From: Halobellus litoreus
GTDB taxonomy: Archaea; Halobacteriota; Halobacteria; Halobacteriales; Haloferacaceae
DNA length: 64,000 nt
Reading direction: 5' to 3'
Assembly: GCF_024464595.1 (NCBI RefSeq)
Contig: NZ_JANHAW010000001.1
Coordinates: forward strand, 620,001 to 684,000
Below the pieces are notes generated by a model that ran no database searches, was not told the DNA's origin, and saw only the letters and a program-made list of their open reading frames with translations. How positions within the stretch are numbered: position 1 is the stretch's first letter; every line of letters begins with the position of its first letter. Of the stretch, positions 24,738 to 53,545 are shown piece by piece. A program made the position numbers and the translations under genes.

Positions 24738-25724
24738 ATGTCAGATCGAATTCTAGTAACTGGGGCGGCAGGGTTTATCGGTCAGCATCTAGTCGAGCGG
24801 CTCGCCGAAGACGGACACGAAATCACAGCGGTCGATATCGACCAACAGGTGCCCGATTCATACTCTCATCATATTGGAGACAATGTGGATTACATCCGCG
24901 GCAGTATTATTCACAAAAACTTCGTGGATAGTGTCCTATTTCCATATCCTAACGCGTACGAGAGAGTATTTCACCTAGCTGCTATCGTTGGGGTTGATCG
25001 ATACATCGACGTTAATGACCCGCTCTACGTGACGAACGTCAATATCACTGGGACGCGATACCTTCTCGAAAAGATACAAAATACAGACACTCATTTCATA
25101 TATCCGAGTACGAGTGAGGTATACGGTAAAAATCCGGAGGTACCATGGTCAGAGGGAGACGATCGGGTCCTTGGTCCACCAGAGACGAGTCGTTGGAGTT
25201 ATAGTGCGATGAAAGCGGTCTGTGAGCATATGATTCATATGCTGGGTGAGACTGATCGGTCAATAACGACGACCGTCGTGCGGCCGTTCAACGTATATGG
25301 GCCGTATCAGCGCCCCAAATTCGTCATTCCGAAGTTCATCGAGATGGTTCTCAACGGAGAGCCGCCAACCGTATACGGAGACGGAACACAAAAACGGTGC
25401 TTCACCTACATGGGTGATTTTGTGGAAGGTCTCATCGCAGCTTCTGAAAGGGATCCCGGAACACCGAGGGCGTACAATCTCGGCGGAACGACAGAGACGA
25501 AAATCAGCGACTTGGCCGAGATGATAATCGAAATCGCAGACGTTGATATGTCCCCCGAGTATGTTAATCCGGAGGACGTATACGACGACGAGTACGACCA
25601 GCCGACGAAACGGATTCCTGATGTTTCCCGTGCCCGAGATATACTTGGGTGGGAGGCTGATACGAGTCTCGAAGAGGGGATCCGTAGGACATACGAACAG
25701 GCCAAAAAAGAACGAGAATCATAG
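24738..25724 (+). CDS. NAD-dependent sugar epimerase/dehydratase (extended SDR)
   Basis: 328 residues with a Rossmann motif TGAAGFIGQHL near 8-18, PSTSEVYG, the catalytic YSAMK near 157-161 and the sugar-binding VYGPYQRP and GDGTQKRCFTY segments. The family includes UDP-glucose 4-epimerases, UDP-glucuronate decarboxylases and nucleotide-sugar 4,6-dehydratases. It does not look like classical PseB (which is shorter at the N-terminus and reads GGTGSFG). It starts the pse-type gene run, one base before the pseC-like gene, so it may supply the keto sugar. A GGGAG ribosome-binding site lies 8-12 nt upstream. The AT-rich island begins here. Confidence 0.8.
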   Translation: MSDRILVTGAAGFIGQHLVERLAEDGHEITAVDIDQQVPDSYSHHIGDNVDYIRGSIIHKNFVDSVLFPYPNAYERVFHLAAIVGVDRYIDVNDPLYVTNVNITGTRYLLEKIQNTDTHFIYPSTSEVYGKNPEVPWSEGDDRVLGPPETSRWSYSAMKAVCEHMIHMLGETDRSITTTVVRPFNVYGPYQRPKFVIPKFIEMVLNGEPPTVYGDGTQKRCFTYMGDFVEGLIAASERDPGTPRAYNLGGTTETKISDLAEMIIEIADVDMSPEYVNPEDVYDDEYDQPTKRIPDVSRARDILGWEADTSLEEGIRRTYEQAKKERES

Positions 25725-25725
25725 T

Positions 25726-26913
25726 ATGTCGGGGACGCCAAGTATCGACGGCGGGCATCCAATTCGGGACGAGGTTCTCGGATACGGGGGACAGGACATT
25801 ACGGAACGAGAAAAGGAAGCGGTCGTCGAAGCGCTTGATGGGGACTACATCACCCGCGGCCCGACCGTTGAAGCGTTCGAGGAGGAAGTCGCCGCGTACG
25901 TCGGTGCAGACCACGCCATCGCGGTGACCTCCGGAACGGCGGCACTCCATCTATTGGGCGAGGCGCTTTTCGAAGACGGAGATGAGGTGATAACGACGCC
26001 GCTCACCTTCGTGTCGACGGCAAACGCGGCGTGTTATGCGGGGGCAAAGCCGGTCTTCGCCGACGTGAAGCGGGATACCCGAAACCTCGATCCAGATAAC
26101 GTTCGCGAGAAGGTCACAGAAGATACAGCGGGGATCATTCCCGTACACTACGCGGGTCAGCCCTGTGACATTAGCGAGATACTGGCGATCGCAGACGAAC
26201 ACGACCTGCGTGTTATCTGGGATGCGTGCCACGCGATCGGCTCCGAGTGGAACAAAGAGAAGGTGGGCGGCCAGAAAGATGCCGCGATATTCAGTTTCCA
26301 TCCGGTCAAGACCGTAACGACGGGGGAAGGTGGAATGGTGGTAACAAACGACGACGACCTCGCCGAGAAAGTGAGAAGTCTCCGTTCCTTCCGTATGGAC
26401 TACTCGCCGGAAGGATACGACAACGAGCCGTGGTATCAGGTCACCGAAGGCGTCGGATACAATTACAACTTCTCCGATATCTTGGCGTCAATCGGTCGCG
26501 TACAACTCGACCGCATCGGCGAATTCAAACGGCGACGCAGCGAGATTTTCGATCGGTATCAAGATACGTTCGCAGACGTCGAGGGACTAATCACTCCCTT
26601 TGTGAAAGATACTGTTGATCCGGTGTGGCACCTTTACGCGATTGAAATTGACGAAGAAAAATTCGGATGTTCTCGGAAGGAGTTCGTGAACTCGATGCAC
26701 GCCGAGAACATCGGGGTTCAGGTGCACTACGTTCCGCTGAACCATCATCCGTATTTCCAAGAGGAATTCGGGTACGATGAAGGTGATTTCCCGATCGTGG
26801 AGGAGATCTACGAAGGGATCGTCTCGCTTCCGCTGTTTCCCGCGATGTCAGAAGACGACGTCGAAGACGTGATACAGGCGGTAAAACGCCTCCACGAACA
26901 CAAGAGGGATTAG
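25726..26913 (+). CDS. pseC: PLP-dependent sugar aminotransferase, PseC-like (DegT/DnrJ/EryC1 family)
   Basis: 395 residues from ATG 25726, one base after the previous stop. PLP-binding Lys195 lies in FSFHPVKTVTTGEGG, with Asp166 in WDACHAIGSEW and SGTAALHL near 69-76. The HPVKTVTTGEGG form is characteristic of PseC/WecE-type enzymes that aminate UDP-4-keto-6-deoxy-hexoses with glutamate. In the pseudaminic acid pathway PseC makes UDP-4-amino-4,6-dideoxy-AltNAc. The adjacent pseI-like gene and the nearby pseH, pseG and pseF relatives support this role; a legionaminic-type variant remains possible. Confidence 0.82.
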   Translation: MSGTPSIDGGHPIRDEVLGYGGQDITEREKEAVVEALDGDYITRGPTVEAFEEEVAAYVGADHAIAVTSGTAALHLLGEALFEDGDEVITTPLTFVSTANAACYAGAKPVFADVKRDTRNLDPDNVREKVTEDTAGIIPVHYAGQPCDISEILAIADEHDLRVIWDACHAIGSEWNKEKVGGQKDAAIFSFHPVKTVTTGEGGMVVTNDDDLAEKVRSLRSFRMDYSPEGYDNEPWYQVTEGVGYNYNFSDILASIGRVQLDRIGEFKRRRSEIFDRYQDTFADVEGLITPFVKDTVDPVWHLYAIEIDEEKFGCSRKEFVNSMHAENIGVQVHYVPLNHHPYFQEEFGYDEGDFPIVEEIYEGIVSLPLFPAMSEDDVEDVIQAVKRLHEHKRD

Positions 26914-26935
26914 GATTGACGTGAGAGTTCGCGAT

Positions 26936-27970
26936 ATGAAGATCGCAGGAAAAGATCTCTCGGAAGAAACGTTTGTGATAGCCGAGGCCGGCTCGAATCA
27001 CAACGGAAGCCTCGAAACCGCGAAGGAACTCATCGACGCCGCGTCGGACGCCGGAGCGGACGCAGTGAAGTTCCAGACGTTCCGCGCCGAAAATTTGTAC
27101 GTCGAAGAGACGGGTGAGAAAGAGACGTACTTCGATAACGGGCAATCGCTCTACGAGACGATGGAGTCGATGGAGATGCCGTACGATTGGATCCCGGAGT
27201 TACACCAGTACTGCGAGGACTCGGGGATCGTCTTTCTATCTACTCCGTTCGATGAACGGTCTGCTGACGAACTTGACGACTTCGTGCCCGCGTACAAGAT
27301 CGCATCGTACACGCTGTCCCATCATCCGTTCCTGAGACACGTTGCGGAGAAGGACAAGCCAATAATTATGTCAACAGGTGCGCACGAACTTGACGAGGTA
27401 CGTGAGGCCGTCGAAGTACTCCGCGAGGCGGATGCAGAGGATGTGGTTTTGTTACACTGCGTTGCGTCGTATCCGACGCCGATTGAGTCCGCTAATGTCC
27501 GTGCTGTCAAGACATTACAAGACGAGTTCGGTGTTCCAACAGGGCTATCTGATCATACTCTCGATCCTACGGTAGCTCCAAGCGCTGCGGTCGCTCTCGG
27601 TGCGAGCGTCGTCGAGAAGCACTTCACCCTCGACAAATCGATGGAAGGCCCCGATCACGAATTTGCGCTTGAACCCGACGAGCTGGACGAGATGGTGAGT
27701 ACGATCCGCAAAACCGAGAAAGCACTTGGGAGCGGTATAGTCGAGGTACTTGATGCCGAGGAAGAGCTACACGAGATTGCACGTCGGCGGATCCACGCAG
27801 TACGAGGTATCAAGGAGGGCCAGACCATCTCTGAAGAAGACATCGCTGTTCTTCGATCAGGGCAAAGAAGTCGAGGGGCGAAGCCGAAATTCTATGAAGA
27901 TCTAATTGGTACAAGAGCAAAGAGATCGATAAATCAAGGAGATGGAGTCTCTCTAAAAGATATCTATTGA
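26936..27970 (+). CDS. pseI: Nonulosonic acid synthase, PseI/NeuB family with C-terminal SAF domain
   Basis: 344 residues from ATG 26936 (MKIAGKDLSEETFVIAEAG); a GTG at 26921 is an alternative. The NeuB TIM barrel shows EAGSNHNG at 17-24, KFQTF at 45-49, and SDHT plus a conserved EKHFTLDK segment. The antifreeze-like SAF domain occupies about residues 285-344. These enzymes condense phosphoenolpyruvate with a six-carbon 2,4-diacetamido (or ManNAc-type) sugar to give a nine-carbon sialic-acid-like sugar. Neighbouring PseC, PseG and PseH relatives favour pseudaminic acid. The gene lies 22 nt after pseC. Confidence 0.88.
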   Translation: MKIAGKDLSEETFVIAEAGSNHNGSLETAKELIDAASDAGADAVKFQTFRAENLYVEETGEKETYFDNGQSLYETMESMEMPYDWIPELHQYCEDSGIVFLSTPFDERSADELDDFVPAYKIASYTLSHHPFLRHVAEKDKPIIMSTGAHELDEVREAVEVLREADAEDVVLLHCVASYPTPIESANVRAVKTLQDEFGVPTGLSDHTLDPTVAPSAAVALGASVVEKHFTLDKSMEGPDHEFALEPDELDEMVSTIRKTEKALGSGIVEVLDAEEELHEIARRRIHAVRGIKEGQTISEEDIAVLRSGQRSRGAKPKFYEDLIGTRAKRSINQGDGVSLKDIY

Positions 27971-28358
27971 TATCACATTACGTCCGGTCCGCTTAGGTGA
28001 TCTCGAATTAATGCTCGCGTGGCGTTCTGATCCTGAGATATACAGGCACTTCCGTGAACAAGATGGTCCGTTGGAGTGGAAAAATCACGTTGAGTGGTTC
28101 GTGAATCGATCCCCCGATAGACAAGATCACATCATCGAATACAACGGGAGACATGTGGGCAGCGTAAACATCGACGAGGAGGATCACGTCGGAGTCTATA
28201 TTGGAGAAAAAAGTTTATGCGGAGAAGGGATAGCTACGAGAGCCGTTCAAGAGCTTTGTGGAAAACTAGATAGCGATGAGTTCTATGCTGAGATCCATAC
28301 TGATAACGAAAGCTCCCAACGACTGTTTGAAAAGTGTGGCTTCAAACTGCTCTGTTGA
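27966..28358 (+). pseudogene. pseH: GNAT acetyltransferase, PseH-like, 3' end displaced by a transposon
   Basis: The frame gives DITLRPVRLGDLELMLAWR, the classic N-terminus of a GNAT sugar acetyltransferase, then GEGIATRAVQEL (acetyl-CoA loop) and FEKCGFK. The first in-frame ATG (28011) is 15 codons inside this conserved start, so initiation may use the ATT at 27966 or another non-standard codon. An IS begins at 28348, so the frame now ends LLC-stop. The displaced tail is recognisable at 32412-32452 (QIRESNE, stop, LKYKR). PseH acetylates the 4-amino group before PseI acts. Only the last residues are lost, so residual activity is possible. Confidence 0.75.
28340..28347. repeat. 8-bp target-site duplication, left copy
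   Basis: CTTCAAAC directly abuts the left inverted repeat of the IS. The identical octamer abuts the right end of the element at 32404-32411. Eight base pairs is the duplication length known for the ISH1 group of the IS5 family. Confidence 0.85.
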
Positions 28359-28527: not shown

Positions 28528-29142
28528 GGAAGCACGTTGTTCTCCACTGCACCCGTATTGAGGACGACTACAGCTAGCGCGAACTCGTTGATCGGGTTGG
28601 CTTGATGGAAGCGGTTTGTGACGAGTTGGGTCTTGATCCCGACGACTTGCCAAAACCGTCCACATTGTGCAAGTCCTTTGACCGGTTTGAGATGTGGGTG
28701 TGGCGGCAGTTGCTGCGCGTTTCGGCGCAGCAACTGCCTACCTCAGGTCACGCCGCGATCGACGGGACATACTTCGAACGGACACAGCCATCCTTCCACT
28801 ACCGCCGTTGGTCAGGACACGAGATACAGACGTTGAAAGCGACGGTCTTGGTAGACTCGCTTACCAAGACCGTCCTTGACATACAGCCTTCTGCGAAATG
28901 GCGGCACGATACTGTTGTTGGGCCGCAGGTCGCTCGACGGAACGCGGGTGACCTGCGGAGCCTTTCTGCTGACAAAGGTTACGATAAGAATGCGTTCCGT
29001 GACTGGCTCAGAGATAATGACGTGAGACCACTGGTACGTCACTGTCTGTACACGTGGTGCGATTACGCCCACAACGCGCGGTTAGACGACTCTCTGTACA
29101 ACAAACGGTAGATGACAGAGACATACTTTTCAGTGGTCAAGC

Positions 29143-31232: not shown

Positions 31233-32219
31233 ATGGCTCGGGTACTCACGACAGCAGCCGGGAGCGATATCGGTGTTGGTGCCATCCAATCTCTAGAGCA
31301 AGCAGGTCATAACGTTGTCGCGGTTGATATGGATTCATACAGTGCTGGTCTGTATATTGCCGACGATGCGGCCACAGTCCCGCCAGCGACACACGACGAC
31401 TGGCCCAATGCGATGTCGGCTATTGTCCAGCAGTACGATGTGGATGTCGTTATTCCGCTTATTGACCCTGAACTAAGCGAACTCTCACGGCTTCGAGAAG
31501 CCTTATGCGACACTGTACCTATTCTTACACCGCGCATACAACTCGTCTCCAGCCTCCAAGATAAGTTTGAAGCATGCAAACTGCTCTCCAAAAAAGGATT
31601 GCCGGTCCCCGAGACGTGTCTTGCTTCCGATGCCGCACATTTATCGCCCTCAGATTTCCCGCGATTCGTGAAACCGAGAGTCGCACACGGGAGTCGTGGT
31701 ACATATTTGGCACACTCTATGACGGATGTAGAAGATTTCGTGGAAGAGAGCCAGTATCCGATGGATGATATGCTGATTCAACAATATATCGAGGGAACTG
31801 AATACACTTCGAACGTGACAGTCACCCAAGAGAATGAATTGTTATCTATTGTCACAAAAGAGGTGCCAATCAAGAGAGGTAATACCATTTGGGGAGTCAC
31901 TCGCAACAGCCCCCCAATCAAGAATTTATGTGAAGATGTCTATGAATCTCTCGATCCATCGGGGCCACTGAATGTCCAACAGATACTGGCTGAAGATGGC
32001 ACACCGTATATTCTCGAAATCAACCCACGGTTTTCAGGTTCGTCTTGCCTCACGGTTGAAGCAGGTGTCAACGAGTTTGATCTCCTTGTTCGAGCTGCAC
32101 TTGGCGAAGAAGTTAATCGCTCGCAGACATTCAAAGAGGGAATTGGAATTCTCAGATACACCGATCAAATATACATTCGTGAAGATTCAGTGCTTACCGA
32201 GTGGGAGCCAGATCACTAA
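31233..32219 (+). CDS. ATP-grasp carboxylate-amine ligase-like protein (transposon cargo)
   Basis: 328 residues of the CarB/PylC-like ATP-grasp fold. The N-terminal pre-ATP-grasp domain begins LTTAAGSDIGVGAIQSL. A DKFEACKLLSKKGLPVPET segment precedes the grasp domain. FVKPRVAHGSRGT supplies the phosphate-binding loop, QQYIEGTEYT the hinge, and EINPRFSGSS near 270 the Mg-binding Glu/Asn. Members ligate an acid to an amine through an acyl phosphate; relatives in surface-sugar loci modify sugars with amino acids or act in lipopolysaccharide assembly. It ends 16 nt before the right IS remnant. A sugar-linked amide is plausible but not shown. Confidence 0.78.
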   Translation: MARVLTTAAGSDIGVGAIQSLEQAGHNVVAVDMDSYSAGLYIADDAATVPPATHDDWPNAMSAIVQQYDVDVVIPLIDPELSELSRLREALCDTVPILTPRIQLVSSLQDKFEACKLLSKKGLPVPETCLASDAAHLSPSDFPRFVKPRVAHGSRGTYLAHSMTDVEDFVEESQYPMDDMLIQQYIEGTEYTSNVTVTQENELLSIVTKEVPIKRGNTIWGVTRNSPPIKNLCEDVYESLDPSGPLNVQQILAEDGTPYILEINPRFSGSSCLTVEAGVNEFDLLVRAALGEEVNRSQTFKEGIGILRYTDQIYIREDSVLTEWEPDH

Positions 32220-32411: not shown

Positions 32412-32452
32412 AGATTAGAGAGTCTAACGAATAGCTGAAATACAAACGCTAA
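32412..32452 (+). pseudogene. Displaced 3' end of the pseH-like acetyltransferase gene
   Basis: Joined to base 28347, this piece continues the acetyltransferase frame as GFK-QIRESNE, a TAG, then LKYKR and TAA at 32450-32452. GNAT proteins commonly end in a '..E-W-L-x-Y..' strand, so the TAG at 32432-32434 looks like a former TGG (Trp) that decayed after the gene was split. The reconstructed protein would be about 140 residues. Its TAA overlaps the stop of the convergent pseG-like gene. Confidence 0.7.
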
Positions 32453-33423
32453 CCCGTCAGCATCGAGTATATTCTCTGGATTCCCCTGGCATCTACTAAT
32501 TCTTCGCCGCTCTCTTTCATAGTTCGTCTCAGATCGCTGTCGGTGACGAGCCTCAATACAGACTCTCGCAGTTCATCTCTTTCACACTGCAGTATACTGT
32601 CCGACAGCGAATTCGCCACAGGACGCTGGTTATCCGATTGAGGGATTCCAATTATCGGAGTTCCTGTCGCGAGAAGCTCATAGACGGTGCTCCCCGTCGC
32701 ACTCACCGCGAAATCGGCTTTGAACATACGTTGTGAGAGGTCATCCGGATTCTGTAGAAGATTCAATTCGGCGTTTGTTGACTCCGCTGCGTCTTTTATC
32801 TGATCTTGGTTTTCAAATCCGGGTCCGATTATCACATCAATCTCGATATCAAAGCCATCAAACGCGCGAATCGCATCAGGCGTTACGTCGTTCACATCAC
32901 TACCACCAAAGGTGATAAGCGCACGCTCAGGGGGATCACGCCAAGGAGGAGTTTTAGTAGCGAGATGCTGGAATTCTTCACGCATTAGTAGATAGTCCGG
33001 TCCCAAGAGCATTTGCGGCTTTTCGCCGATCCAGTCATAATTAAGCTCTGGTGCATAGACGTTACCATTTACGTTCACATCGCAACAAAGCTTGAACCGG
33101 GTATCGTCGGTTATTGTTACTAGTGTCGATGGAGACTTGGAGATCTGTTTCTGAGATTTGGTATCAACCTCGTATGAATCTGTGAGAACTATCGTTGGCT
33201 CGTGTTTCTTGATCCATAGTAGAGTCTCTTCAATACCTTCGGATTTTAATCGGAATGTTTCAACTTCATCTGGACAAATATTGCTGACTGCAGATGGTGT
33301 CTGAGTCAGATATGTGACTTGATAACCGTTTTGTAGAAACTTCTGTGCTAATACACTCGATCGAACAAGATGCCCATATCCGATTTCAGAATCACCATCT
33401 GCACGAATAGCGAGGTAGTTCAT
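32449..33423 (-). CDS. pseG: UDP-sugar hydrolase, PseG/SpsG-like
   Basis: 324 residues of the GT-B fold. It begins MNYLAIRADGDSEIGYGHLVR, the PseG signature (R-x-D-x-x-x-x-G-x-G-H-x-x-R), in which the Asp and His near 9 and 17 are catalytic. The C-terminal half has ALITFGGSD near 169-177, and further on ATGSTVYELLATGTP and PQSDNQRPVA for UDP binding. PseG removes UDP from UDP-2,4-diacetamido-2,4,6-trideoxy-altrose to give the free sugar used by PseI. It overlaps the pseF-like gene by ATGA and converges on the interrupted pseH. PseG rather than a hydrolysing 2-epimerase favours pseudaminic acid as the product. Confidence 0.85.
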   Translation of the reverse strand: MNYLAIRADGDSEIGYGHLVRSSVLAQKFLQNGYQVTYLTQTPSAVSNICPDEVETFRLKSEGIEETLLWIKKHEPTIVLTDSYEVDTKSQKQISKSPSTLVTITDDTRFKLCCDVNVNGNVYAPELNYDWIGEKPQMLLGPDYLLMREEFQHLATKTPPWRDPPERALITFGGSDVNDVTPDAIRAFDGFDIEIDVIIGPGFENQDQIKDAAESTNAELNLLQNPDDLSQRMFKADFAVSATGSTVYELLATGTPIIGIPQSDNQRPVANSLSDSILQCERDELRESVLRLVTDSDLRRTMKESGEELVDARGIQRIYSMLTG

Positions 33424-34160
33424 ATTTTCTTTTGCTCTACGTGCTGGTTTATTTCACTTAGATCATTTTTGTCAATATAGCGTACTGCATCAAGTAAATC
33501 TATGATTCGATCATAATCTACTTCGTCGTATATTCGGCGGAGAAGTTCGTAATCATTCGATTCATCAAGTGTAAGACGTAAATCCGTTCTATTCTGCAGG
33601 TTTTCATAATCGAACACCTCATCGGATAGAATATCGTACAGATTGAATTTGTCTGGGTTCTCGTAGTAGTACGGGGTTACATGTTCTCGATGTCGAGATT
33701 CGGTGGATTCCTCTTTAACAGTTCGAAATGAATCGAAAGTAAATGCACCTACTCTCAATCCGTGGGGAAATGTTTGCTCAGATCGTGCTGAGACATACTC
33801 ATAGCCGTCGGACAATTTGTCGACCGCTGTATCGATAAATCTTGGAGAAACAAGTGGACAATCGGCTGTAACTCGAACTACAATATCTGCGCTACTCTCA
33901 TTGGCAGCGTCAAACATCCTTTCGAGGACATTTTCTTCACTTCCGCGAAAGACAGTCGCGCCTGAACGATCTGCGTAGAGGTTAATGATATCGTCGCGCT
34001 TCTTATCTGAGGTGGCAACGACAATTTCATCGATACTATCTGATGAAGCAACTCTTCGGATAACGTGTTCTATCACGTGGTTACCATCAAGTGGCAACAT
34101 TACCTTTCCAGGCAAACGTGATGAGCCCATACGCGCTTGTATGCAAGCTACCGTTTTCAT
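33420..34160 (-). CDS. pseF: Nonulosonic acid cytidylyltransferase-like, PseF/SpsF family
   Basis: 246 residues from the ATG at 34160 (MKTVACIQARMGSSRLPGK); an in-frame TTG at 34169 is less likely. The N-terminal ACIQARMGSSRLPGK loop binds CTP, followed by VTADCPLVSP with the metal-binding Asp. Classical CMP-sugar synthetases read 'I..R.GSK'; this one has the SpsF/glycosyltransferase-type QARM-S-RLPGK form that occurs with SpsE and SpsG in nonulosonic acid loci. It would activate the nine-carbon sugar with CTP. Start and stop overlap pseG by four bases. Confidence 0.8.
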   Translation of the reverse strand: MKTVACIQARMGSSRLPGKVMLPLDGNHVIEHVIRRVASSDSIDEIVVATSDKKRDDIINLYADRSGATVFRGSEENVLERMFDAANESSADIVVRVTADCPLVSPRFIDTAVDKLSDGYEYVSARSEQTFPHGLRVGAFTFDSFRTVKEESTESRHREHVTPYYYENPDKFNLYDILSDEVFDYENLQNRTDLRLTLDESNDYELLRRIYDEVDYDRIIDLLDAVRYIDKNDLSEINQHVEQKKI

Positions 34161-34278
34161 ATGATTCAAATGGATTCCTCTCTACAGTGCTAAATCTTTC
34201 TCTTGCTCTTCTATATTGATATCTGGTCGTTTCAAAGATAGCAGTAGACTTTTTATCGTCCCCAAAGGTCCACAGACT

Positions 34279-35694
34279 ATGGGAAAAAACAACTCTATGC
34301 GGCCTTCAAACGGTGTCTGGCTGATACTTGATTCTCTCTCATACAATTCGACTCCTTTTGCAAGTGATGGGCCGGATTCTATGCCAAGATTTCAAACACT
34401 TGCAGAAGACGAGGGTGTGATTTTTTCTGAGGCATACGCACCAGGTCCATTTAGTCCCTCTTCACATGCTTCATTCTTTACTGGAGAGCTACCCTCTACG
34501 ACTGGGATGTACGAAGCATATCCGTTTTTTAATTCTGATATTCCAACTATAGCTGACTTTTTAAGCGAAACACACAGAACGAGCCTTATTTCTGTAAATC
34601 ACTTTTTATTCCAAGGCTTAGAAAGGGGATTCGATTACGTGAATGATATTGGTCGGACTTATATGCATTTCCAAAATGCGAGTGATCCAAAGGATTACTC
34701 AAAAAAATACAACAGTGATCCGAGACTGAAACGGTTTGTTGATTTCCTCCGCGACGACGGGAAGCCTTTTAAATCAGTTGTGAATGGGCTAAAATATAGA
34801 TTCGGAGAAAAAAACATCAAGCCCAAAGAGTGGGGAGATGAGAGAGATTTCCAGTATGCCGATACTATGGGTGAGATGATTTTAGATCAGCTCTCCTCGC
34901 ATAAAGACGATTCATTTGTTGTAGCGAACTTTATGGATCTTCATGGCCCCTTTGATGTAAGCGATGAAGCCCTCAATAAGTTCTTCTCAGATACAGATCG
35001 GTCCGAAATTCCGTTGGGAGTTGTCCCTCGTCGAGATAAATTACGTGGTGAGAAATCCTATGACCCGGCCAAGATGTACAATCTATACAAAGCAGCTATC
35101 TGGGATCTTGACCGCAAATTCACCTCTTTAGTGAAGGATCTAATAGACAATGACATCTTCGTTGCTGTATGTGCAGACCACGGATGGTACGATACCAATT
35201 CTGCGTACTCCGATGAAAGGCTGCATATTCCGGTCGTTCTATTTTCCCCTGAAGAAGAAAATCGAAGAATCAGTCATACAGTAAGTCTCCGACAACTTCC
35301 TAGAACCACTGCTGAAGTTTTGCTTGGAGATGGGGGAGAGTTCAATGGACCATCACTTCTCAAAACGGAATCAGATCAAGTAGCCGTTTCTGAAGTCGTG
35401 CATAAGCCAAACGAGATCTATGAAAAGACCAAGCGGGTATACGTTAATAGGCCTTCACAAGGAGCAGAACCAAATGAAATCCAACGTGACTTGGTCTTAT
35501 TTAAGGGGGATGCCAAAGTTCAATTCGTAGATGGAAGTTGTGATGTTATTAGAGGAGATTCTACGATCGCTGATGAATTGATTGAGCAGGGACAAAATAT
35601 CCTAGATTCACCAATTAATTACCCAGACGGGGATCAGATTATGTATGATGAGCGAACGGAAGATAGGCTCAAACACTTGGGCTATTTGTCATAG
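34279..35694 (+). CDS. Sulfatase / alkaline-phosphatase-superfamily protein
   Basis: 471 residues from ATG 34279; ATG 34300 is also possible. GVWLILDSLSYNSTPF near 12-27 gives the first metal-binding Asp. PFSPSSHASFFTGELPST holds a Ser/Thr nucleophile in place of the sulfatase Cys/Ser-x-Pro-x-Arg. VCADHGWYD near 297 gives the paired Asp-His metal ligands. Members hydrolyse sulfate or phosphate esters or transfer phospho-groups such as phosphoglycerol. There is no signal peptide, so it should act in the cytoplasm, perhaps on lipid-linked glycans or by decorating them. The gene is AT-rich and its 3' end overlaps the convergent aminopeptidase-like gene by 13 nt. Confidence 0.75.
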   Translation: MGKNNSMRPSNGVWLILDSLSYNSTPFASDGPDSMPRFQTLAEDEGVIFSEAYAPGPFSPSSHASFFTGELPSTTGMYEAYPFFNSDIPTIADFLSETHRTSLISVNHFLFQGLERGFDYVNDIGRTYMHFQNASDPKDYSKKYNSDPRLKRFVDFLRDDGKPFKSVVNGLKYRFGEKNIKPKEWGDERDFQYADTMGEMILDQLSSHKDDSFVVANFMDLHGPFDVSDEALNKFFSDTDRSEIPLGVVPRRDKLRGEKSYDPAKMYNLYKAAIWDLDRKFTSLVKDLIDNDIFVAVCADHGWYDTNSAYSDERLHIPVVLFSPEEENRRISHTVSLRQLPRTTAEVLLGDGGEFNGPSLLKTESDQVAVSEVVHKPNEIYEKTKRVYVNRPSQGAEPNEIQRDLVLFKGDAKVQFVDGSCDVIRGDSTIADELIEQGQNILDSPINYPDGDQIMYDERTEDRLKHLGYLS

Positions 35695-37022
35695 CTCGTC
35701 AATACCCTTTGTAGTAGGTTGTGGTCTAAAAGGGTCTCAACGACGGGTATCATCTCATCCATAGGACAGCCGTAATCATCCGCGATCTCTACCATAGCGT
35801 GTTCTCCGTCGCTATAGTTGAGAACAGTCAGAATCCGATTTAAGAATTCTTGTTCATTCACCACTGAATTCGCCCTTTCCCATTGTTGGGGACTATTTAT
35901 ATTTGGATAGAGATCACGTTTCCCAAGCATAGGCTCTCCGTATGGCTTTTGATTCTCATAATAGCCAGCGTATTCAAAAGATTGTAGTAGATTTTCAATT
36001 AGATCAACACTCTGAATAAGAGAATCAATTCCCATAAATTCTTTATCATCGTTTGAATTGTGGTAACCGTCATATTGACCGTAAACCGTTCTTGCTATCT
36101 GCCCCACAGGGAGGTTAAATCCGGGCGAGCAGTACTGCCTTTCGTCGGATCCACCTGTTGGTGTAAATTGACGAATTTTGAATCCTTTGTCACTTTGTTC
36201 TTTTAAATTTTGAACTGTTTTGTCAATAAGAGCATTTTCTCGACGACTAGTCTTGTAACTAAGGCTCTCACTAGGTCCACCAAGACAGGTCAGAACAAGA
36301 CCGCCGACGAGTGCGTCTTTTAGATGATCGCCGTATTCAGACAAATAAGCGATGCTACCAATCGTTTCGGGACAAAGAACGAAACGATACGTGAACTGTC
36401 TATTCTCCCACTCGGAGAGACGATGGTATAGTGCTGCAAGAACTAATGGCCCACTTAGTTCGTTATTCGCAAGTGATGGGTGACAGAGATAGGAACTGAG
36501 TAGTACTTCTTCGTCTGATTCACCCGGCAAAACGGTATGTCCAAAATTTAATTCTCCATCCACGAATTCGCTATCAATGTGGGCATAGTATTCACCTTCA
36601 GGTAACTCTTCGTAGACTTGGTGTGGAAGACAAAATCCCCACGTTCGTTCATAGTAACTGGTGACATAGGGTGTTGCATCAGGTACACTCGGGTCAGTAT
36701 ACAGGTGCGGTTTTAATTCGTCAAGTGAAAAAGACCCATTAACTGCTTTAGAATAATTTACTACAGCAAGGTTCGTTTCATCAAAATCAGCGTAGATATT
36801 TCGGTCTGGGCCGGTAAGACGTCCCTCATAGATGTGCCATTCAGGGGGTATTTCCCAATCGAAAACGTCTGTACCCGATGGTACCCCTTCAATTTCGAGC
36901 GGTATTTCCTCTCGAAAGATCTTGAGGCTCTTTCGTAGGCCCGGGCCAGTTATACTTCTCGTCACTGGCCAGAGATCATCAAAAAGTCTACTCAGCCACT
37001 CTGACTCATTCTCGATATACAT
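35682..37022 (-). CDS. M28-aminopeptidase-like protein with C-terminal winged helix (DUF4910/DUF2172 type)
   Basis: 446 residues. The N-terminal signature FDDLWPVTRSITGPGLR and the later EIPPEWHIYEG are typical of this family, found in bacterial surface-sugar loci. A metallopeptidase-like core shows LNFGHTVLPG, SSYLCHPSLANNELSGP near 160-180 and GGSDERQYCSPG near 290. The last 70 residues look like a winged helix-turn-helix (EQEFLNRILTVLNY). The presumed activity is hydrolysis of an amide or peptide bond, or a modified version used in sugar chemistry; neither the substrate nor the activity is established. It lies 1 nt after the stop-side neighbour 37024-38475, so these two form an operon on the minus strand. 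Confidence 0.78.
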   Translation of the reverse strand: MYIENESEWLSRLFDDLWPVTRSITGPGLRKSLKIFREEIPLEIEGVPSGTDVFDWEIPPEWHIYEGRLTGPDRNIYADFDETNLAVVNYSKAVNGSFSLDELKPHLYTDPSVPDATPYVTSYYERTWGFCLPHQVYEELPEGEYYAHIDSEFVDGELNFGHTVLPGESDEEVLLSSYLCHPSLANNELSGPLVLAALYHRLSEWENRQFTYRFVLCPETIGSIAYLSEYGDHLKDALVGGLVLTCLGGPSESLSYKTSRRENALIDKTVQNLKEQSDKGFKIRQFTPTGGSDERQYCSPGFNLPVGQIARTVYGQYDGYHNSNDDKEFMGIDSLIQSVDLIENLLQSFEYAGYYENQKPYGEPMLGKRDLYPNINSPQQWERANSVVNEQEFLNRILTVLNYSDGEHAMVEIADDYGCPMDEMIPVVETLLDHNLLQRVLTSYDK

Positions 37023-37023
37023 A

Positions 37024-38475
37024 TTAGTTTATATTATTTTCTTGTTTGATTACATCCTCAAGTGCCGCTTCAATATTTTGGACGGCATTCGGGTTGAAAA
37101 AGTAATCTGTATCAATAGTACCTTTAGCATTCATAGTGTGTTGTGATACTTTTTGACTTAATTCATCAATAGACGAAATGGTTGACACAGAGCTATTATC
37201 AATTAATTCTTTCATTCGCATACTAGCCGTTCCATCTGAATCAAGTAAATACGTCTCTAAGTCAAAAATTAATCCTTCGTAGATAACTGTTGAATTACAT
37301 CCTACCTGTATTGCTGACTCAGCTAAATGTTTGTAGAGGGGCGTAGAATCGTCGTCGATCACTGTCACCGGTGCTTCTATTAGCCAAGGATATTCTCTCT
37401 TCCAAATATTGTTTTCCTTGGGATGGAGTTTATAGACGATATTATACTCCGGATTTCTCTCTCCGATTTTAGATGCAAGTTTCGAAAGTTTGCTTCCGAC
37501 CGGTGGCTGAGAGATGAAGATTACTTGCTTCTTTTTATCGAGATTAGAATATTTTTCGTATTCCTCCTCTAGATAGGGAAAACCCACAGTATACACGTCC
37601 TCATCATCTAAGTGATAATCAACGGTGTCTTTCCAAAACTTGCCGAAGAGGAAATGATAGTCAGGCTGCACATCCAGACTGACATCTTCTGGGAAGACAT
37701 ATTTGGGGTTCCTGTGGTGGGAACCACCGTGTTGAAGTTCAACTACTGGGATATCTAACTCCTTGCAAGCTTCAACAAAGACGGTATTATAGGACGCAGC
37801 AACAACAATAGAAATTTTGGGATTGATCTGCTTAAGTAATCGAATATACATCGGCCTCGAAACCTGCCTCCGATCTAAATATCCTTTTATAATATTGCTA
37901 AGATCTATTTGTATCTCTAATTTCGAACTGAATTTATCTGTTATTTGTTGTATTTTATCGCACTCTATAGGAGATAAAGATACTCCAGAGCTAATTTTAG
38001 AACTAATTATTCCGATATCCCTAATCAGATCTAGATATTTAATATTATTCGTTCGAGTAGGTGTTCTATGTACCCCTTGATACGGCTTCTCGAAATAAAT
38101 ATAATCTCTTTCAAGATCTTCAATGATCGGATCCGAATAGATGTCCCACCAGTAGTTGTCTTCTCTTTTCTTTCGTCTTGAGTGACCAAAAAAGCAGAGT
38201 TCATAAGAAGATGTGGTTAGATATGGATTTTTAATAAGCAAATCAGATACAAACTCATATAAAAACCTAGCATATTTATATGATGTTTTATATTCAGACA
38301 GGAAAAAAGTTTGTGATCGTGTATCTTCAATTATTCCTTTCTCTCTCAGAAATTCTTTATATACTATAATTCTTATCCGCTCCCATATATATACATCGTT
38401 TATATTTACTGAAAATAAGTCTAATTCGTCTTCTAACTGTAGAAATTCACCGTGAATCTCTTCATAATCCATCAT
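37024..38475 (-). CDS. Candidate GT-B glycosyltransferase of a capsule/polysialyltransferase-like type
   Basis: 483 residues, very AT-rich (many Ile, Lys, Tyr and Asn codons, unlike the haloarchaeal average). I do not recognise the N-terminal half. The C-terminal half has the hallmarks of capsule and CDP-sugar-dependent GT-B transferases: VVELQHGGSHHRNP near 242-255, YKLHPKE near 348, and GCNSTVIYEGLIFD near 394-407. HG, HP and ST motifs at these spacings occur in polysialyltransferases and teichoic-acid polymerases that use CMP- or CDP-donors. Next to the pse genes, a CMP-nonulosonic acid transferase is a reasonable guess. It is co-transcribed with the aminopeptidase-like gene. Confidence 0.55.
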   Translation of the reverse strand: MMDYEEIHGEFLQLEDELDLFSVNINDVYIWERIRIIVYKEFLREKGIIEDTRSQTFFLSEYKTSYKYARFLYEFVSDLLIKNPYLTTSSYELCFFGHSRRKKREDNYWWDIYSDPIIEDLERDYIYFEKPYQGVHRTPTRTNNIKYLDLIRDIGIISSKISSGVSLSPIECDKIQQITDKFSSKLEIQIDLSNIIKGYLDRRQVSRPMYIRLLKQINPKISIVVAASYNTVFVEACKELDIPVVELQHGGSHHRNPKYVFPEDVSLDVQPDYHFLFGKFWKDTVDYHLDDEDVYTVGFPYLEEEYEKYSNLDKKKQVIFISQPPVGSKLSKLASKIGERNPEYNIVYKLHPKENNIWKREYPWLIEAPVTVIDDDSTPLYKHLAESAIQVGCNSTVIYEGLIFDLETYLLDSDGTASMRMKELIDNSSVSTISSIDELSQKVSQHTMNAKGTIDTDYFFNPNAVQNIEAALEDVIKQENNIN

Positions 38476-43305: not shown

Positions 43306-43806
43306 CTACTCTTCGTCGACGTAGCCGACAATCTCGGCTGGATTGCCCGCGACAATAGCATTCTCTGGCACATCTTCGGTCACTACTGCGCCTGCTCCGA
43401 CAAGGGCGTTCTCTCCGATCTCTACGGGGAGAATAGTCGCGTTAGTTCCGATAGCTGCACCGTTTTGAACTCTCGTTTCTTCCCACTCATCCTTGTTCCC
43501 ACTCGGGGGGTAGAGGTCGTTAACGAATTTTGCCCCGTGACTCACAAACACGTCATCTGCTAATGTCACAAATGAGCATACGAAGGAATGTGATTGGACC
43601 CGACAACGATCTCCAATTTGCACGTCTTCCTGTATCTCGACTAATGATCCAATCATACAGTCATCCCCTATACTGACGCCATAGAGGTTGTCAAACCGCC
43701 ATATCCTGCAGTTCTCACCGATCACAGAGTCGTGAATAACTGTAAAGTGGCCTATTTCAGTACCGCTTCCCACCGCCGTATTTTCGACGATTGTAAAATC
43801 TGACAC
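43306..43806 (-). CDS. Left-handed beta-helix N-acetyltransferase, WbpD-like
   Basis: 166 residues from the GTG at 43806, which begins VSDFTIVENTAVGSG, the usual WbpD-type start, and lies 25 nt after the stop of the upstream gene. The open frame continues to 43923 but would overlap the glycosyltransferase gene. Hexapeptide repeats run from about 8 to 150, with the catalytic-loop His in VFVSHGAKFVNDLYPP and a terminal NAIVAGNPAEIVG. WbpD acetylates the 3-amino group of UDP-GlcNAc3NA to give UDP-2,3-diacetamido-glucuronic acid. With the WbpE- and WbpB-like genes next door the role is well supported. Confidence 0.78.
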   Translation of the reverse strand: MSDFTIVENTAVGSGTEIGHFTVIHDSVIGENCRIWRFDNLYGVSIGDDCMIGSLVEIQEDVQIGDRCRVQSHSFVCSFVTLADDVFVSHGAKFVNDLYPPSGNKDEWEETRVQNGAAIGTNATILPVEIGENALVGAGAVVTEDVPENAIVAGNPAEIVGYVDEE

Positions 43807-43831
43807 GGAGACAAGATGACCACAGCCGTAA

Positions 43832-44857
43832 TTAATGTTCTGTTGCTTTGACGATCTGTTCGTAGTACTGCTCAGCCACTGCTTTCCAACTGTGTTCTTT
43901 CGCTTTTTGTTGAAGATTCTCACCGTACATACTGGCTAGTTTATTGTCTGATGAAAGCCTCCGAAGCACATCGGAAATTTCCGCTGGATCTGCATCCACG
44001 AAAACGAGTTCATCATCGGAGAAGTTCTTTCGAAGTTTGCCATTGTATCCAAGCGTCGGAAGCCCTGCAGCACCGTACTCCATAATTTTGAGCGGTTGTT
44101 CCCTGTCTGCTAAGCATAACCCAGCGGAACCGTGATACAGAAACCCAGGGATGAGGTCATACTCGAAGGACCCAAGAAAGTGTGCGTTTTCGCGCTCAGA
44201 GACAATTTCTTGGATTCCTGCACCTCGGTCTTTACCGATAAAGACGAATTCCCACCCCGGGGTTCGCTCAGCAGCATCACCGATCTCGGAAAGATAATAA
44301 TGGGGAACCATACTCCCAATATAGATCGCGATCGGGTTGTCGAGAGCGACACCTCCTTCCTTGAGGGCTTTGTGTGCCTGGTCTTTCGATTTCGAGGACG
44401 GGTAGCGGAATCGGTCGTAATCCACAGCGTTCCTCGCAAGAATCGGATGGAGTCCTCGATCTTTGGCGGTTTCGTACGAGTCCGCCTCGACGAAGAAACA
44501 CGTCTGAGATCGTGCCAAGACCCACCACTCAAACGCTCGAATACTCCCGTAGACTGGGGCTGGGAGATGATTCAAATCCTCGATAGAGTCGCTCACATCA
44601 CCTATTAGAGGTTTTCGTAGGGCGATGGAGAGGGCATATCCGAGATAGAGACCAATACGCACATTCCCAATAATAACATCATACTCAGTCGATAACACTT
44701 CGGAAATCGCCCCAAAAGCGTCCAATCCACTCGTATCGCATATTGTAACCTGAACGTTTTTCTTTTCGAGATGTTCGGCGATACGTTCACGCCGAACACT
44801 CACATTCTCGCCGGTAGACGGCCGAAGCCAGAGTACTGTTATTTCTTTATCACTCAT
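43832..44857 (-). CDS. GT-B glycosyltransferase (family 4-like)
   Basis: 341 residues. It begins ITVLWLRPSTGENVSVRRERIAEHL with a basic cluster typical of GT-B acceptor domains. The donor half has NPIAIYIGSMVPHYYLSE near 173-190, GSFEYDLIPGFLYHG near 227 and QPLKIMEYGAAGLPTLGY near 254-271 with the donor-contacting Glu. It is upstream of the WbpD-like gene by 25 nt on the same strand, so both are probably one transcript. It may transfer the diacetamido-uronic acid made by its neighbours, but the donor is not shown. Confidence 0.78.
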   Translation of the reverse strand: MSDKEITVLWLRPSTGENVSVRRERIAEHLEKKNVQVTICDTSGLDAFGAISEVLSTEYDVIIGNVRIGLYLGYALSIALRKPLIGDVSDSIEDLNHLPAPVYGSIRAFEWWVLARSQTCFFVEADSYETAKDRGLHPILARNAVDYDRFRYPSSKSKDQAHKALKEGGVALDNPIAIYIGSMVPHYYLSEIGDAAERTPGWEFVFIGKDRGAGIQEIVSERENAHFLGSFEYDLIPGFLYHGSAGLCLADREQPLKIMEYGAAGLPTLGYNGKLRKNFSDDELVFVDADPAEISDVLRRLSSDNKLASMYGENLQQKAKEHSWKAVAEQYYEQIVKATEH

Positions 44858-45065
44858 AGATCGTCTCCGTTCGGTGTTGTGTTATCCACCCAGTCATCGT
44901 CTCATATAAGTGTAAAGTGGATTGAATGAGGAAATGATTATCGCACCAGAATTGATCACTGCGTGGATAAGCATATTTGTCCTATTTTCGCCGGGCTGAA
45001 TTCTCTTTCGTTACCACTCAGAAGCTATCAAAATGTATTTATCAAATATGGCTGAACGGAGACGT
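44858..45065. other. Divergent intergenic region
   Basis: About 208 bases between the glycosyltransferase (minus) and carbamoyltransferase (plus) genes. A GGAG ribosome-binding site at 45058-45061 precedes the ATG at 45066. No further gene was seen. Confidence 0.4.
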
Positions 45066-50323: not shown

Positions 50324-53300
50324 ATGGGTTCGCGTAGTGAAGCTGACGACGGAGGAGGCAAGTCGGTCCTCGGCATCGTAGAGGACTGGTATCAGGTCCC
50401 CGCGCTCCTCCTCGTGGTAGTTGCAATGTTCGCGATACGGATACAATCGTATTCAAACTTCATCCGAGACGGCGAGGTATTCTTCTCCGGCAACGACGGG
50501 TGGTATCATTATCGGGAAGTGATGTACACAGTGCAGAACTGGCCGTCCACGATGCCGTTCGATCCCTGGACGGGCTTCCCCTACGGCGCGTTCGCCGGGC
50601 AGTTCGGCACGCTGTACGATCAGATCGTTGCCACGATCGCGCTGGTGGTCGGTCTCGGCTCACCGAGCCCCGAACTCGTCGCGAAGGCCCTCCTCCTCGC
50701 GCCAGCGGTCGCCGGCGCGCTCGCGGCGATTCCGGTCTACGTTATCGGCAAGCGTCTCGCCGGCCGGCTCGCCGGTCTCTTCGGTGCGGCCGTCCTGCTG
50801 CTTCTGCCCGGCTCCTTCCTCAGCCGGACGCTCGTCGGCACGGCCGACCACAACGCGGTCGAACCGCTCGCGATGGGCCTCGCTGTCGCGGGCCTCGTGA
50901 TCGCCCTGCAAAAGGCCGCGTCCACCATGCCGGTCTGGGAGGTCGTTCGCGAGGAGGTCGTCGAACGCCGTGAGATCGACACGATCGAGGAGCCACTGAA
51001 GTGGAGCCTCCTGGCGGGCTTCCTCACTGGGGTCTACATCTGGACGTGGCCGCCGGGCGTCGTCCTCGTGGGCATCGTCGGCGTCTTCACGCTGGTCAAG
51101 ATCACGAGCGACGTCGTCAACGAGCAGACCCCGGAACCGACCGCGTTCGTCGTCGCGACGAGTATGCTCGTCGTGGCCGTGATGGCGCTTCTCGACCTCG
51201 AACTGCTGTCGTTCTCGACGAACGATCCATCGCTGCTCCAGCCGCTGGCCGCGGCGAGCGTCGCCGCCGCCGCCGTCGTCCTCGCGTGGCTCGCCCGCAC
51301 GTGGGAATCGGCCGACCTCGACACGAGTCTCTATCCGGCCGCGGTCGCCGGCCTCGCAGTTGTCGGGATCGGCGTCCTCGCCGTGCTCCCGATCGGCGTC
51401 ATCGACCTCGTCGTGAACAACCTCCTCCGCATCGTGGGCTTCTCTGCGGGCGCGACAGCTCGAACCATCGGCGAGGCTCAGCCCTTCATCGCGCCGTCGT
51501 CCCTCCAGCGGTACGGCGTCGAGGCCGCCGGTCGGATCTCGATCGAGTACGGCCTGACGTTCTTCACGGGGCTGGCGGCCGCGGTTTGGCTGTATACGCG
51601 CCCGCTCGTCAAGAAAGGGTCCAACCGAGCGTACGGGTACGTCGCCGGCGCGCTGGCGATCATCGCGCTCATCTTCCTCGTCCCGGCCGTTCTCGGAGGC
51701 GTCGAGAGCGTTACTGGCATCGACGAACAGGTCGCCGGACTGCTGATCGTCTCGGCGCTCATCGTCGGTGCAACATATCTCACAGAATACGACGCCGACA
51801 AACTGTTCATCGTCGTCTGGGCCGTGTTCATCACGTCGATGGCGTTCACGCAGGTCCGCTTCAACTACTATCTCGCGCTCGTCGTCGCCGTGTTCAACGC
51901 CTACCTCTTCGGGCAGGTCCTCGGGTGGGTCAACCTCGACGTGTCCGCACGCGAGGCCGTCGACGACATCCACGGCTATCAGGTACTGGCGATCGTCGCC
52001 TCGCTCCTCCTGATCCTCGGGCCCGCGCTCGCCGTCCCGATCACCGTCGGCAACACGCAGACGTCGCCCGCGTGGCAGTCCGCGCAGAACCACAATCCCG
52101 GCGCGGTCACCGTCTGGGACGAGTCGCTCTCGTGGATGCAAGGAAACACCCCCGAAGAGGGTAATCTCGGCGGCGCGGGTAACGCCGATCAGATGGAGTA
52201 CTACGGCACCTACGAACGGACCGACGACTTCGAGTACCCGAAGGGGGCCTACGGGGTGATGTCCTGGTGGGACTACGGCCACTGGATCACCGTCGAGGGC
52301 GAGCGCGTCCCGAACGCGAACCCGTTCCAGCAGGGCGCGACGAGCGCCGCGAACTTCCTGCTCGCGCCGAACGAGACCCAATCGGAAGCGGTCCTCACCT
52401 CGCAGAGCACCGAGGGCGATCAGACCCGCTACGTGATGGTCGACTGGCAGATGGCGACCCCGGGCTCGAAGTTCAGCGCGCCGACCGTGTTCTACAACGC
52501 GGAGGAGAACGTCTCCCGCGAAGACTTCCTCCAGCCCCTGTACCGCTTCGACGACGAGAACGAGGGGCAGTTCGTCGGGACCACCACGGTTCGGACGGAC
52601 CGCTTCTACGACAGCACGATGACGCGGCTGTACTACTACCACGGGAGCGCCCAACAGCCCTCGCCGGTCGTCGTCGACTGGGATCCCCGCCAGGTACAGG
52701 CCGCCGGCGGCGACTCGGTGACGGTGCCGGCGAACCCGCAGGGCGAACAGACCTTCGTTCGGACCTTCGAGAACATAAGCGCCGCCGAGGCGTACGTCGA
52801 AGAGGACGGCACCGCCCAGATCGGCGGGATCGGGCAGTACCCGTCCGAACGCGTCGAGGCGCTGGAGCACTACCGTCTCGCGCACGTCAGCAACACCTCC
52901 GCGTCGAACTCGATCCTCCGGACCACCGGCCGCAATTCGCAGATCCTCGGCGTCAGCCCGCAGGCGGCCGTCCCGAGTAACCCCGCGTGGGTCAAGACCT
53001 TCGAGCGCGTCCCCGGTGCGACGGTCGAGGGCAGCGGTGCGCCCGCGAACACCAACGTGACGGCGCAGACCGAGCTCCGGATCCCGAACACGAACTCGAC
53101 GTTCACCTACACGCAGCGCGCGGAGACGGACGAGAACGGTAACTTCGAGATGACGCTGCCGTACTCGACGACCGGCTACGACGAGTACGGCCCGGAGAAC
53201 GGCTACACGAACGTCAGCGTGCGCTCGACGGGCCCGTACACGATCTCCTCGCCCGCGTCGTTCCAGAACGGGTCGATCGTCAACTACCAGGCGAACCTCT

Positions 53301-53545
53301 CGGTCGCTGAAGGCGACGTCAACGGCGACGAGGACGGGGCCGTGAGCGTGGAACTCGAACGCAACGAGCAGCAGTTACAGATCGGCGGCGGCTCCGACGG
53401 CGACTCGGCGTCCGCCTCGACGTCGACCGATGGTACGACCGACGGCTCCGGAAGCACCGACGGCACGTCCGGTGACTCCTCGTCCGACACCCAATCGAGC
53501 CTGCACGCGCCGACAGTCGAGACCGGCGTCGCGCGGGCGAGCTAA
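50324..53545 (+). CDS. aglB: Oligosaccharyltransferase AglB (STT3 family)
   Basis: 1,073 residues. About 13 membrane segments fill the first 570 residues; the first external loop carries FSGNDGWYHYRE with the metal-binding Asp. The signature WWDYG is at 648-652 and starts the soluble domain, followed by a long beta-rich part. The last 60 residues are a Ser/Thr/Gly/Asp-rich tail (about 1020-1060). AglB transfers the completed glycan from dolichol phosphate to Asn in N-x-S/T on the outer face of the membrane. It is longer than bacterial PglB and typical of haloarchaeal AglB. It closes the glycosylation locus on the right. Confidence 0.95.
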   Translation: MGSRSEADDGGGKSVLGIVEDWYQVPALLLVVVAMFAIRIQSYSNFIRDGEVFFSGNDGWYHYREVMYTVQNWPSTMPFDPWTGFPYGAFAGQFGTLYDQIVATIALVVGLGSPSPELVAKALLLAPAVAGALAAIPVYVIGKRLAGRLAGLFGAAVLLLLPGSFLSRTLVGTADHNAVEPLAMGLAVAGLVIALQKAASTMPVWEVVREEVVERREIDTIEEPLKWSLLAGFLTGVYIWTWPPGVVLVGIVGVFTLVKITSDVVNEQTPEPTAFVVATSMLVVAVMALLDLELLSFSTNDPSLLQPLAAASVAAAAVVLAWLARTWESADLDTSLYPAAVAGLAVVGIGVLAVLPIGVIDLVVNNLLRIVGFSAGATARTIGEAQPFIAPSSLQRYGVEAAGRISIEYGLTFFTGLAAAVWLYTRPLVKKGSNRAYGYVAGALAIIALIFLVPAVLGGVESVTGIDEQVAGLLIVSALIVGATYLTEYDADKLFIVVWAVFITSMAFTQVRFNYYLALVVAVFNAYLFGQVLGWVNLDVSAREAVDDIHGYQVLAIVASLLLILGPALAVPITVGNTQTSPAWQSAQNHNPGAVTVWDESLSWMQGNTPEEGNLGGAGNADQMEYYGTYERTDDFEYPKGAYGVMSWWDYGHWITVEGERVPNANPFQQGATSAANFLLAPNETQSEAVLTSQSTEGDQTRYVMVDWQMATPGSKFSAPTVFYNAEENVSREDFLQPLYRFDDENEGQFVGTTTVRTDRFYDSTMTRLYYYHGSAQQPSPVVVDWDPRQVQAAGGDSVTVPANPQGEQTFVRTFENISAAEAYVEEDGTAQIGGIGQYPSERVEALEHYRLAHVSNTSASNSILRTTGRNSQILGVSPQAAVPSNPAWVKTFERVPGATVEGSGAPANTNVTAQTELRIPNTNSTFTYTQRAETDENGNFEMTLPYSTTGYDEYGPENGYTNVSVRSTGPYTISSPASFQNGSIVNYQANLSVAEGDVNGDEDGAVSVELERNEQQLQIGGGSDGDSASASTSTDGTTDGSGSTDGTSGDSSSDTQSSLHAPTVETGVARAS

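Follow-up and report, generated by a model that had tools for sequence, protein, structure and literature searches.

How does a haloarchaeon that assembles a nonulosonic acid (NulO) attach it to a glycan, and which NulO does it attach? The question is raised by an open reading frame (37024..38475, minus strand; 483 aa, ATG start) in the 64,000-nucleotide stretch of the Halobellus litoreus genome analysed here, hereafter the window. An earlier note had described this frame as an AT-rich orphan lying next to pse genes, and had proposed it as a candidate pseudaminic acid (Pse) transferase. With a probability of roughly three in four, its product is a soluble GT-B glycosyltransferase that passes a CMP-linked NulO of the Pse or legionaminic acid (Leg) type, supplied by the adjoining cassette, to a lipid-linked N-glycan precursor before the AglB step. 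The enzyme class, CMP-NulO transferase, is probable on the grounds of fold, motif and near-exclusive linkage to the NulO synthase NeuB.

The frame itself and the three motifs that the note had picked out are real and are conserved beyond what chance would give. ELQHGG (residues 246-251; 37723..37740, minus strand) is the proposed region of the catalytic base, YKLHP (residues 348-352; 37420..37434, minus strand) is an instance of the (K/R)xHP motif for which CMP binding is proposed, and GCNSTVIYEG (residues 392-401; 37273..37302, minus strand) may supply nucleotide contacts. For conservation, 112 sequences were reduced to 97 distinct members (438-541 aa) by dropping 15 identical ones, one further locus (L071), whose frame ends at 73 aa, having been left out beforehand. 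Thirteen positions are invariant in all 97, namely E15, W31, E246, Q248, G278, W281, G298, S322, H351, L365, G392, S395 and E400, and 96 retain [KR]xHP, which reads K349-L-H351-P352 in the window protein. The AT-richness was likewise borne out: at a GC content of 0.355 and a GC3 of 0.329, the frame is the lowest among the 22 genes measured (compare AglB at 0.664/0.885 and GlmS at 0.642/0.818). It forms the extreme of an AT-rich glycan island, spanning approximately 24-47 kb of the window within a GC-rich chromosome, in which the PseG, cytidylyltransferase and DUF4910 genes are also low in GC (0.42-0.47). A phage or plasmid origin was considered and rejected, as tblastn returned no match in phage or plasmid collections and none was confirmed in viral contigs.

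The gene is no orphan, and on this point the earlier note was mistaken. A protein search found homologues in 33 of 392 haloarchaeal-order genomes, and a scan of GTDB contigs confirmed 198 stretches, from which 80 loci were kept; an earlier search of 99 relatives had returned 12 with a homologue, three of them (G002, G016 and G055) outside the 392. By record title, the 80 loci comprise 24 haloarchaeal, 23 Asgard, 22 Methanobacteriales, three unnamed archaeal and eight bacterial entries, so that Methanobrevibacter, Asgard archaea and some bacteria carry relatives as well. A profile search of the 392 genomes, scoring at most four candidates per genome, recovered the same 33 together with weak hits in G304, G365 and G020, among which only G304 has NeuB. 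In G304, the hit is a divergent 472-aa frame (L142, 11962-13377; profile E 4e-16) that is 24% identical to the window protein, bears the motifs IQHG, CKLHP and TSTAL and lies approximately 6 kb from NeuB in a cassette of the Leg type. The protein search thus understates the extent of the family. No homologue was found genome-wide in the same-genus genomes G006 and G012, which possess similar cassettes, and none in the 20 kb read there.

The structure prediction proposed in the earlier note, for which a fold unlike GT-B would have counted against a transferase, was run, and the predicted fold is GT-B. The AlphaFold2 model, built from a 33-member alignment, has a pLDDT of 90.4 and a pTM of 0.90, and its residues 89-481 superpose on GT-B proteins (Foldseek, VIA-align); in the structural alignment, 864 of 1000 chains reached a Z of at least 8, with GT-B proteins in the top rows. 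The N-terminal half, which the note had called unrecognised, is indeed so by sequence, but not by fold, since residues from approximately 89 onward correspond to the GT-B N-terminal domain; residues ~1-88 are modelled as a helical extension ahead of it. A typical membrane-helix stretch was sought and not seen in the protein (19-residue Kyte-Doolittle maximum, 1.07).

Searches with family models assign the protein to no family, and we regard its relatives as a sequence family that is unassigned but belongs to a known kind of enzyme. No Pfam family passes its cut-off for the window protein, the nearest being DUF7329 (35 residues, 21.6 bits; cut-off 27), and the best NCBIfam match is NF046086, the BFO_1060 family glycosyltransferase (E 2.4e-8; residues 329-445), for which the score of 33.5 bits falls below the cut-off of 200. 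NF046086 is also matched by 11 of the 33 aligned haloarchaeal members at E <=1; it is the best curated family for the window protein, yet at most a distant relative. We guess BFO_1060 to be the orthologue of Tannerella GtfS; a literature search for the name BFO_1060 found no paper. Six of the 33 members weakly match DUF6716, a putative glycosyltransferase family (best E 7.5e-5), and one matches the alpha-2,8-polysialyltransferase model (PF07388, E 0.25). Among proteins of solved structure, a sequence search returned only two chains named SV2A, a human-protein name (E 0.28 and 0.29), and a profile search returned none. The D/E-D/E-G motif of bacterial sialyltransferases occurs nowhere in the window protein; the nearest candidate is E105-D106-N107, a place at which 36 of the 97 members carry the motif.

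The gene is near-exclusively linked to NulO-making genomes across the 392-genome order set. NeuB (PF03102) is present in 73 of these genomes, including all 33 with the homologue and 40 of the 359 without it (Fisher p ~6e-28); by genus, the figures are 24 of 24 and 16 of 71 (p ~3e-12), both p-values being optimistic because the genomes are related and independence is overstated. The count of 33 refers to the 392-genome set, the homologue-bearing G016 and G055 standing outside the NeuB search. Homologue and NeuB share a contig in 30 of the 33, separated by 0-13.9 kb (median 5.0 kb), the largest gap belonging to Halorubrum aquaticum (G052, locus L104), in which NeuB falls beyond the 10-kb flank. 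NeuB lies on a different contig in the remaining three (G124, G330 and G029), although the G029 homologue is split by a contig end, with its second part on the contig that carries NeuB. In G242, only short adjoining matches are found (contig C128, 40428-40764; E 1.3e-9 for the homologue in the profile search and 1.1e-4 for NeuB), which suggests joint decay of the two genes.

The GTDB loci extend this picture. NeuB lies within the contig stretch covered at 61 of the 80 loci and less than 500 bases from the homologue at 25, 17 of which are from Methanobacteriales; the usual Methanobrevibacter gene order is cytidylyltransferase, PseG-like gene, NeuB and homologue. The presence of Pse in M. smithii has been reported (Lewis et al. 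2009, as cited in PMC6137143). Of the 19 loci without NeuB, 16 are truncated on one or both sides by a contig that stops inside the 10-kb flank; of the other three, one is L104 and two are Heimdallarchaeota loci (L067 and L088), at which no NeuB was detected within 10 kb on either side by tblastn at E 1e-8. The 40 NeuB genomes that lack a homologue by protein search led to rejection of the idea that one gene serves all haloarchaeal NulOs: this family is not the sole solution.

The cassette beside the gene holds candidate NulO-pathway genes that fit the Pse models unevenly. The proposed CMP-NulO synthetase is a cytidylyltransferase (CTP_transf_3; 33420..34169, minus strand), and it is accompanied by a PseG-type UDP-sugar hydrolase (32449..33423, minus strand; TIGR03590, 172.4 bits, cut-off 153.55). 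On the plus strand lie an extended SDR of the nucleotide-sugar dehydratase/decarboxylase type (24738..25724), a PseC-like aminotransferase (25726..26913, in an ORF called from 25543; 393.1 bits, cut-off 423.5), a NeuB-family NulO synthase (26921..27970) and a weakly PseH-like GNAT acetyltransferase (28011..28358; 31.9 bits, cut-off 93.1). The synthase scores 330 bits on the PseI model against a cut-off of 340.25, and the PseF model reaches only 27.1 against 205.7; the near misses of PseC and PseI may reflect divergence of the archaeal proteins. PseB, the inverting 4,6-dehydratase, was not found genome-wide (best 38.3 bits, cut-off 407.75). Of the earlier note's "pse genes", PseG passes its model, PseC, PseI, PseF and PseH fall below their cut-offs and PseB is absent. 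Among solved structures, the nearest relative of the synthase is SpsE of B. subtilis (1vli; 287 bits, compared with 234 for pseudaminic acid synthase).

Several further neighbours were noted. The DUF4910/DUF2172/HTH_47 gene (35682..37022, minus strand) starts one base past the stop codon of the transferase gene, and the two probably share one transcript, given this gap and the common strand. DUF4910 occurs in eight of the 392 order genomes, all eight of which have NeuB, within 8.4 kb in seven; the transferase homologue is missing from seven of these eight genomes, so DUF4910 is a NulO-linked gene in haloarchaea in its own right. A remnant of an IS5-family transposase (28602-29111; 169 aa, 98.1 bits, cut-off 140) lies inside the cassette. 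An ATP-grasp ligase (31233-32219) and a calcineurin-like phosphoesterase (30472-31131) have counterparts, 52% and 47% identical, in the G012 cassette (L143, 12169-13185 and 13208-13885), with no match in L144; as a guess, the ligase might acylate a NulO amino group. Further along are a NeuD/PglB-type hexapeptide acyltransferase (43306-43923; 74.5 bits, cut-off 160.8) and a NodU-like carbamoyltransferase (45033-46814), which could possibly modify the same glycan. The earlier note saw no other candidate for using CMP-Pse, and a Pfam scan of 19 other cluster proteins, a part of the cluster genes, found no sialyltransferase-like match (E <=1 in one scan, <=1e-6 in the other); one of the 19, 43832-44857, is weakly TuaH-like and lacks any Pfam match.

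Comparison with other loci was used to ask whether the donor could be read from context. The cassettes of G006 and G012 contain counterparts of the PseC-like enzyme, NeuB, PseG and the cytidylyltransferase (43-67% identical, by best match), as well as two SDRs absent from the window, one PseB/Pen-like (286-293 bits) and the other Pal-like by context. In these sister cassettes (L143 and L144), the two SDRs occupy the place taken in the window by one low-identity SDR (24738..25724), which is 28-30% identical to their second SDR and, at just 25%, is the best window match to the PseB/Pen-like one. Loci were then typed in 33 genomes, comprising G002, G055 and all homologue-bearing genomes of the order set except G029 and G242 (31 of 33). 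PseG is matched in 14 of them, passing the cut-off in six, a hydrolysing 2-epimerase is present in 15 and four show neither; the Pse-type and Leg/Neu-type labels record gene presence, not chemistry. In one clade, homologues from the two kinds of locus (L002 and L025 against L029 and L056) are 72-77% identical, and the two types are intermingled among the haloarchaeal branches of the tree. Assigning the donor by phylogeny was consequently abandoned, as the tree fails to split the types (18 changes among four labels, minimum 3). The labels are clustered all the same (30.5 changes on average after shuffling, with all 200 shuffles above 18), largely through near-copies in Methanobrevibacter, and the count comes from a quick tree with long branches at L010, L011 and L125 and leaves out the 32 of 97 rows that are untyped.

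Several bacterial systems resemble the window family. In Tannerella forsythia, GtfS (Tanf_01245) and TFUB4_00887 are reported as transferases of Pse5Am7Gra and of a Leg derivative, respectively; the two share 81% identity despite serving different donors, Pse and Leg (PMC6388019, PMC6120980), and cross-complementation is reported to have failed, pointing to stringency of each for its own donor (PMC6388019). The haloarchaeal pairs from Pse- and Leg-type loci, at up to 77% identity, are comparable. GtfS is described as being, like the window protein, of GT-B type with an HP motif and a gene beside a NulO cassette (PMC6388019, PMC6120980), a likeness drawn from description and not from an alignment with GtfS; the Tannerella enzymes differ in serving a bacterial O-glycan and in carrying D/E-D/E-G. 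Conservation of the (K/R)xHP motif is reported both for sialyltransferases (taken here as GT29, GT38, GT42, GT52 and GT80) and for retaining Kdo transferases; in KrkA its His is described as essential and in contact with CMP (PMC12887879). The CMP-using enzymes of GT99 (WbbB), GT107 (KpsC) and GT140 (KrkA) share this motif with the family, and a KpsC homologue has been reported as an Acinetobacter Pse transferase (PMC12887879). Retaining Kdo transferases use a nucleophilic Asp; at what seems by eye to be the equivalent position to that of KrkA (after FISQ), 95 of the 97 members carry Gly. The bacterial sialyl- and polysialyltransferases of GT38, GT52 and GT80 share the HP motif and the proposed donor class of CMP-linked sugar acids; the window protein differs from them in having no Pfam match at cut-off and no D/E-D/E-G.

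Fold alone cannot separate a transferase from an epimerase, since both occur within GT-B, and the strongest structural matches are in fact UDP-GlcNAc 2-epimerases (Z 19.5, rmsd 3.6 over 315 residues, 13% identity), a group (WecB/NeuC) that would place the protein within NulO synthesis itself, as a sugar-nucleotide epimerase or hydrolase. That identity, prompted by the fold search, was rejected because separate epimerases or PseG co-occur with the gene: the window already has PseG, a separate 2-epimerase lies beside NeuB or the homologue in 15 of the 33 typed genomes, as read from coordinates, and Epimerase_2 is matched by just one of 33 aligned members (E 0.25), so that an epimerase is highly improbable. 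Other structural matches include MurG (Z 18.4) and the CDP-ribitol enzyme TarL (Z 16.8), and the latter raises a different alternative, a transferase that only happens to reside in the same glycan islands and uses another activated residue, for example CDP-glycerol or CDP-ribitol phosphate, or Kdo. One of the 33 members weakly matches the CDP-glycerol glycerophosphotransferase model (PF04464, E 0.0028), for which the window protein gives no match at E <=1. A precedent is B. subtilis SpsB, described as a putative transferase with a TagB-type domain, HP motifs and also a DEG motif, encoded beside the Leg genes of a NulO cassette (PMC7439481). Its deletion is reported to have kept Leg, making it dispensable for Leg transfer by that account (PMC7439481), and although SpsB is likened here by description and not by sequence, it warns that neighbourhood and HP motif can mislead. 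Transfer of another residue would nevertheless give no reason for confinement to NeuB-bearing genomes (33 of 33), nor for the proximity of NeuB in Methanobacteriales, and it is regarded as unlikely. The CMP-NulO transferase reading, well supported by fold, motif and NeuB linkage, has points against it in turn: the top structural matches are not CMP users, with no sialyl- or Kdo-transferase structure (GT99, GT107 and GT140 included) among the best 50, D/E-D/E-G is absent, 40 NeuB genomes lack a homologue by protein search, and the SpsB precedent applies to this reading as well.

For a CMP-NulO transferase, the donor class is NulO, and the Pse-specific reading of the earlier note is over-specified: the transferase part of that proposal stands, whereas a Pse donor is not established. 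Pse is nonetheless a tentative choice, favoured by the PseG that passes TIGR03590, by the G006 and G012 counterpart cassettes with their PseB/Pen-like and Pal-like SDRs, by the nearest transferase (L024, Halorubrum persicum), whose genome has PseG and a PseB/Pen-like SDR, and by the PseG-like genes adjoining most Methanobrevibacter relatives. Pen and Pal are reported to open the Pse route of B. thuringiensis (PMC7439481), yet the present genome lacks a PseB/Pen-like gene (best 38 bits), and its SDR has the low identity to the sister enzymes noted above; the PseC, PseI, PseF and PseH shortfalls and the interleaving of locus types in the tree weigh on the same side. So does the nearness of the synthase to SpsE, as the B. 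subtilis sps route, which includes SpsG and UDP-linked precursors, is reported to lead to Leg (PMC7439481). A Leg derivative made by an sps-like route is a possibility to be taken seriously, if a somewhat doubtful one; the missing PseB/Pen and the SpsE-like synthase fit it, the SDR reaches 131 bits with the LegB model (cut-off 475), and N-formyl-Leg is the NulO reported on a haloarchaeal N-glycan (PMC6137143). It is harder to square with a PseG over its cut-off, with an SDR that scores slightly higher on a dTDP-glucose dehydratase model than on LegB, and with the lack of a LegG-type hydrolysing epimerase beside the window genes, the only Epimerase_2 match of the genome lying on another contig.

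Whichever NulO is used, the C-terminal domain would bind CMP through K349-x-H351-P352 together with S395, and E246 of ELQHG would be the likeliest general base. Inversion of the anomeric configuration is probable, as in sialyltransferases, an inverting mechanism being proposed because no obvious nucleophilic Asp is present. The NulO would be added to a lipid-linked N-glycan precursor, after which AglB would transfer the glycan to protein. We infer this acceptor and cellular site from the position of the AglB oligosaccharyltransferase gene of the N-glycosylation locus (50324..53545, plus strand), which lies 12 kb from the transferase gene in the same island, the link being one of distance. Genes for haloarchaeal N-glycans are reported to be commonly grouped around aglB, and N-formyl-legionaminic acid has been described on an N-glycan of Halorubrum (PMC6137143). 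Capping of the lipid-linked N-glycan precursor is, by inference, the likeliest role.

NulO transferases have been reported from bacteria, as in Tannerella (PMC6388019). Among the open-access matches listed, none describes an archaeal NulO transferase in its title or the opening of its abstract, a search to which bioRxiv and most subscription papers were outside scope. The family addresses a gap that has been stated in print. A broader proposal, to which we give equal weight for and against, is that an unclassified family of inverting CMP-NulO transferases, spread across haloarchaea, Asgard archaea and gut methanogens, caps archaeal surface glycans, with the acceptor side held constant while the adjoining cassette switches the donor between the Pse type and the Leg/Neu type. 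The conserved motifs, the NeuB linkage in Methanobrevibacter and the Asgard members make the question directly testable, and the family offers candidate enzymes for making Pse and Leg glycosides.
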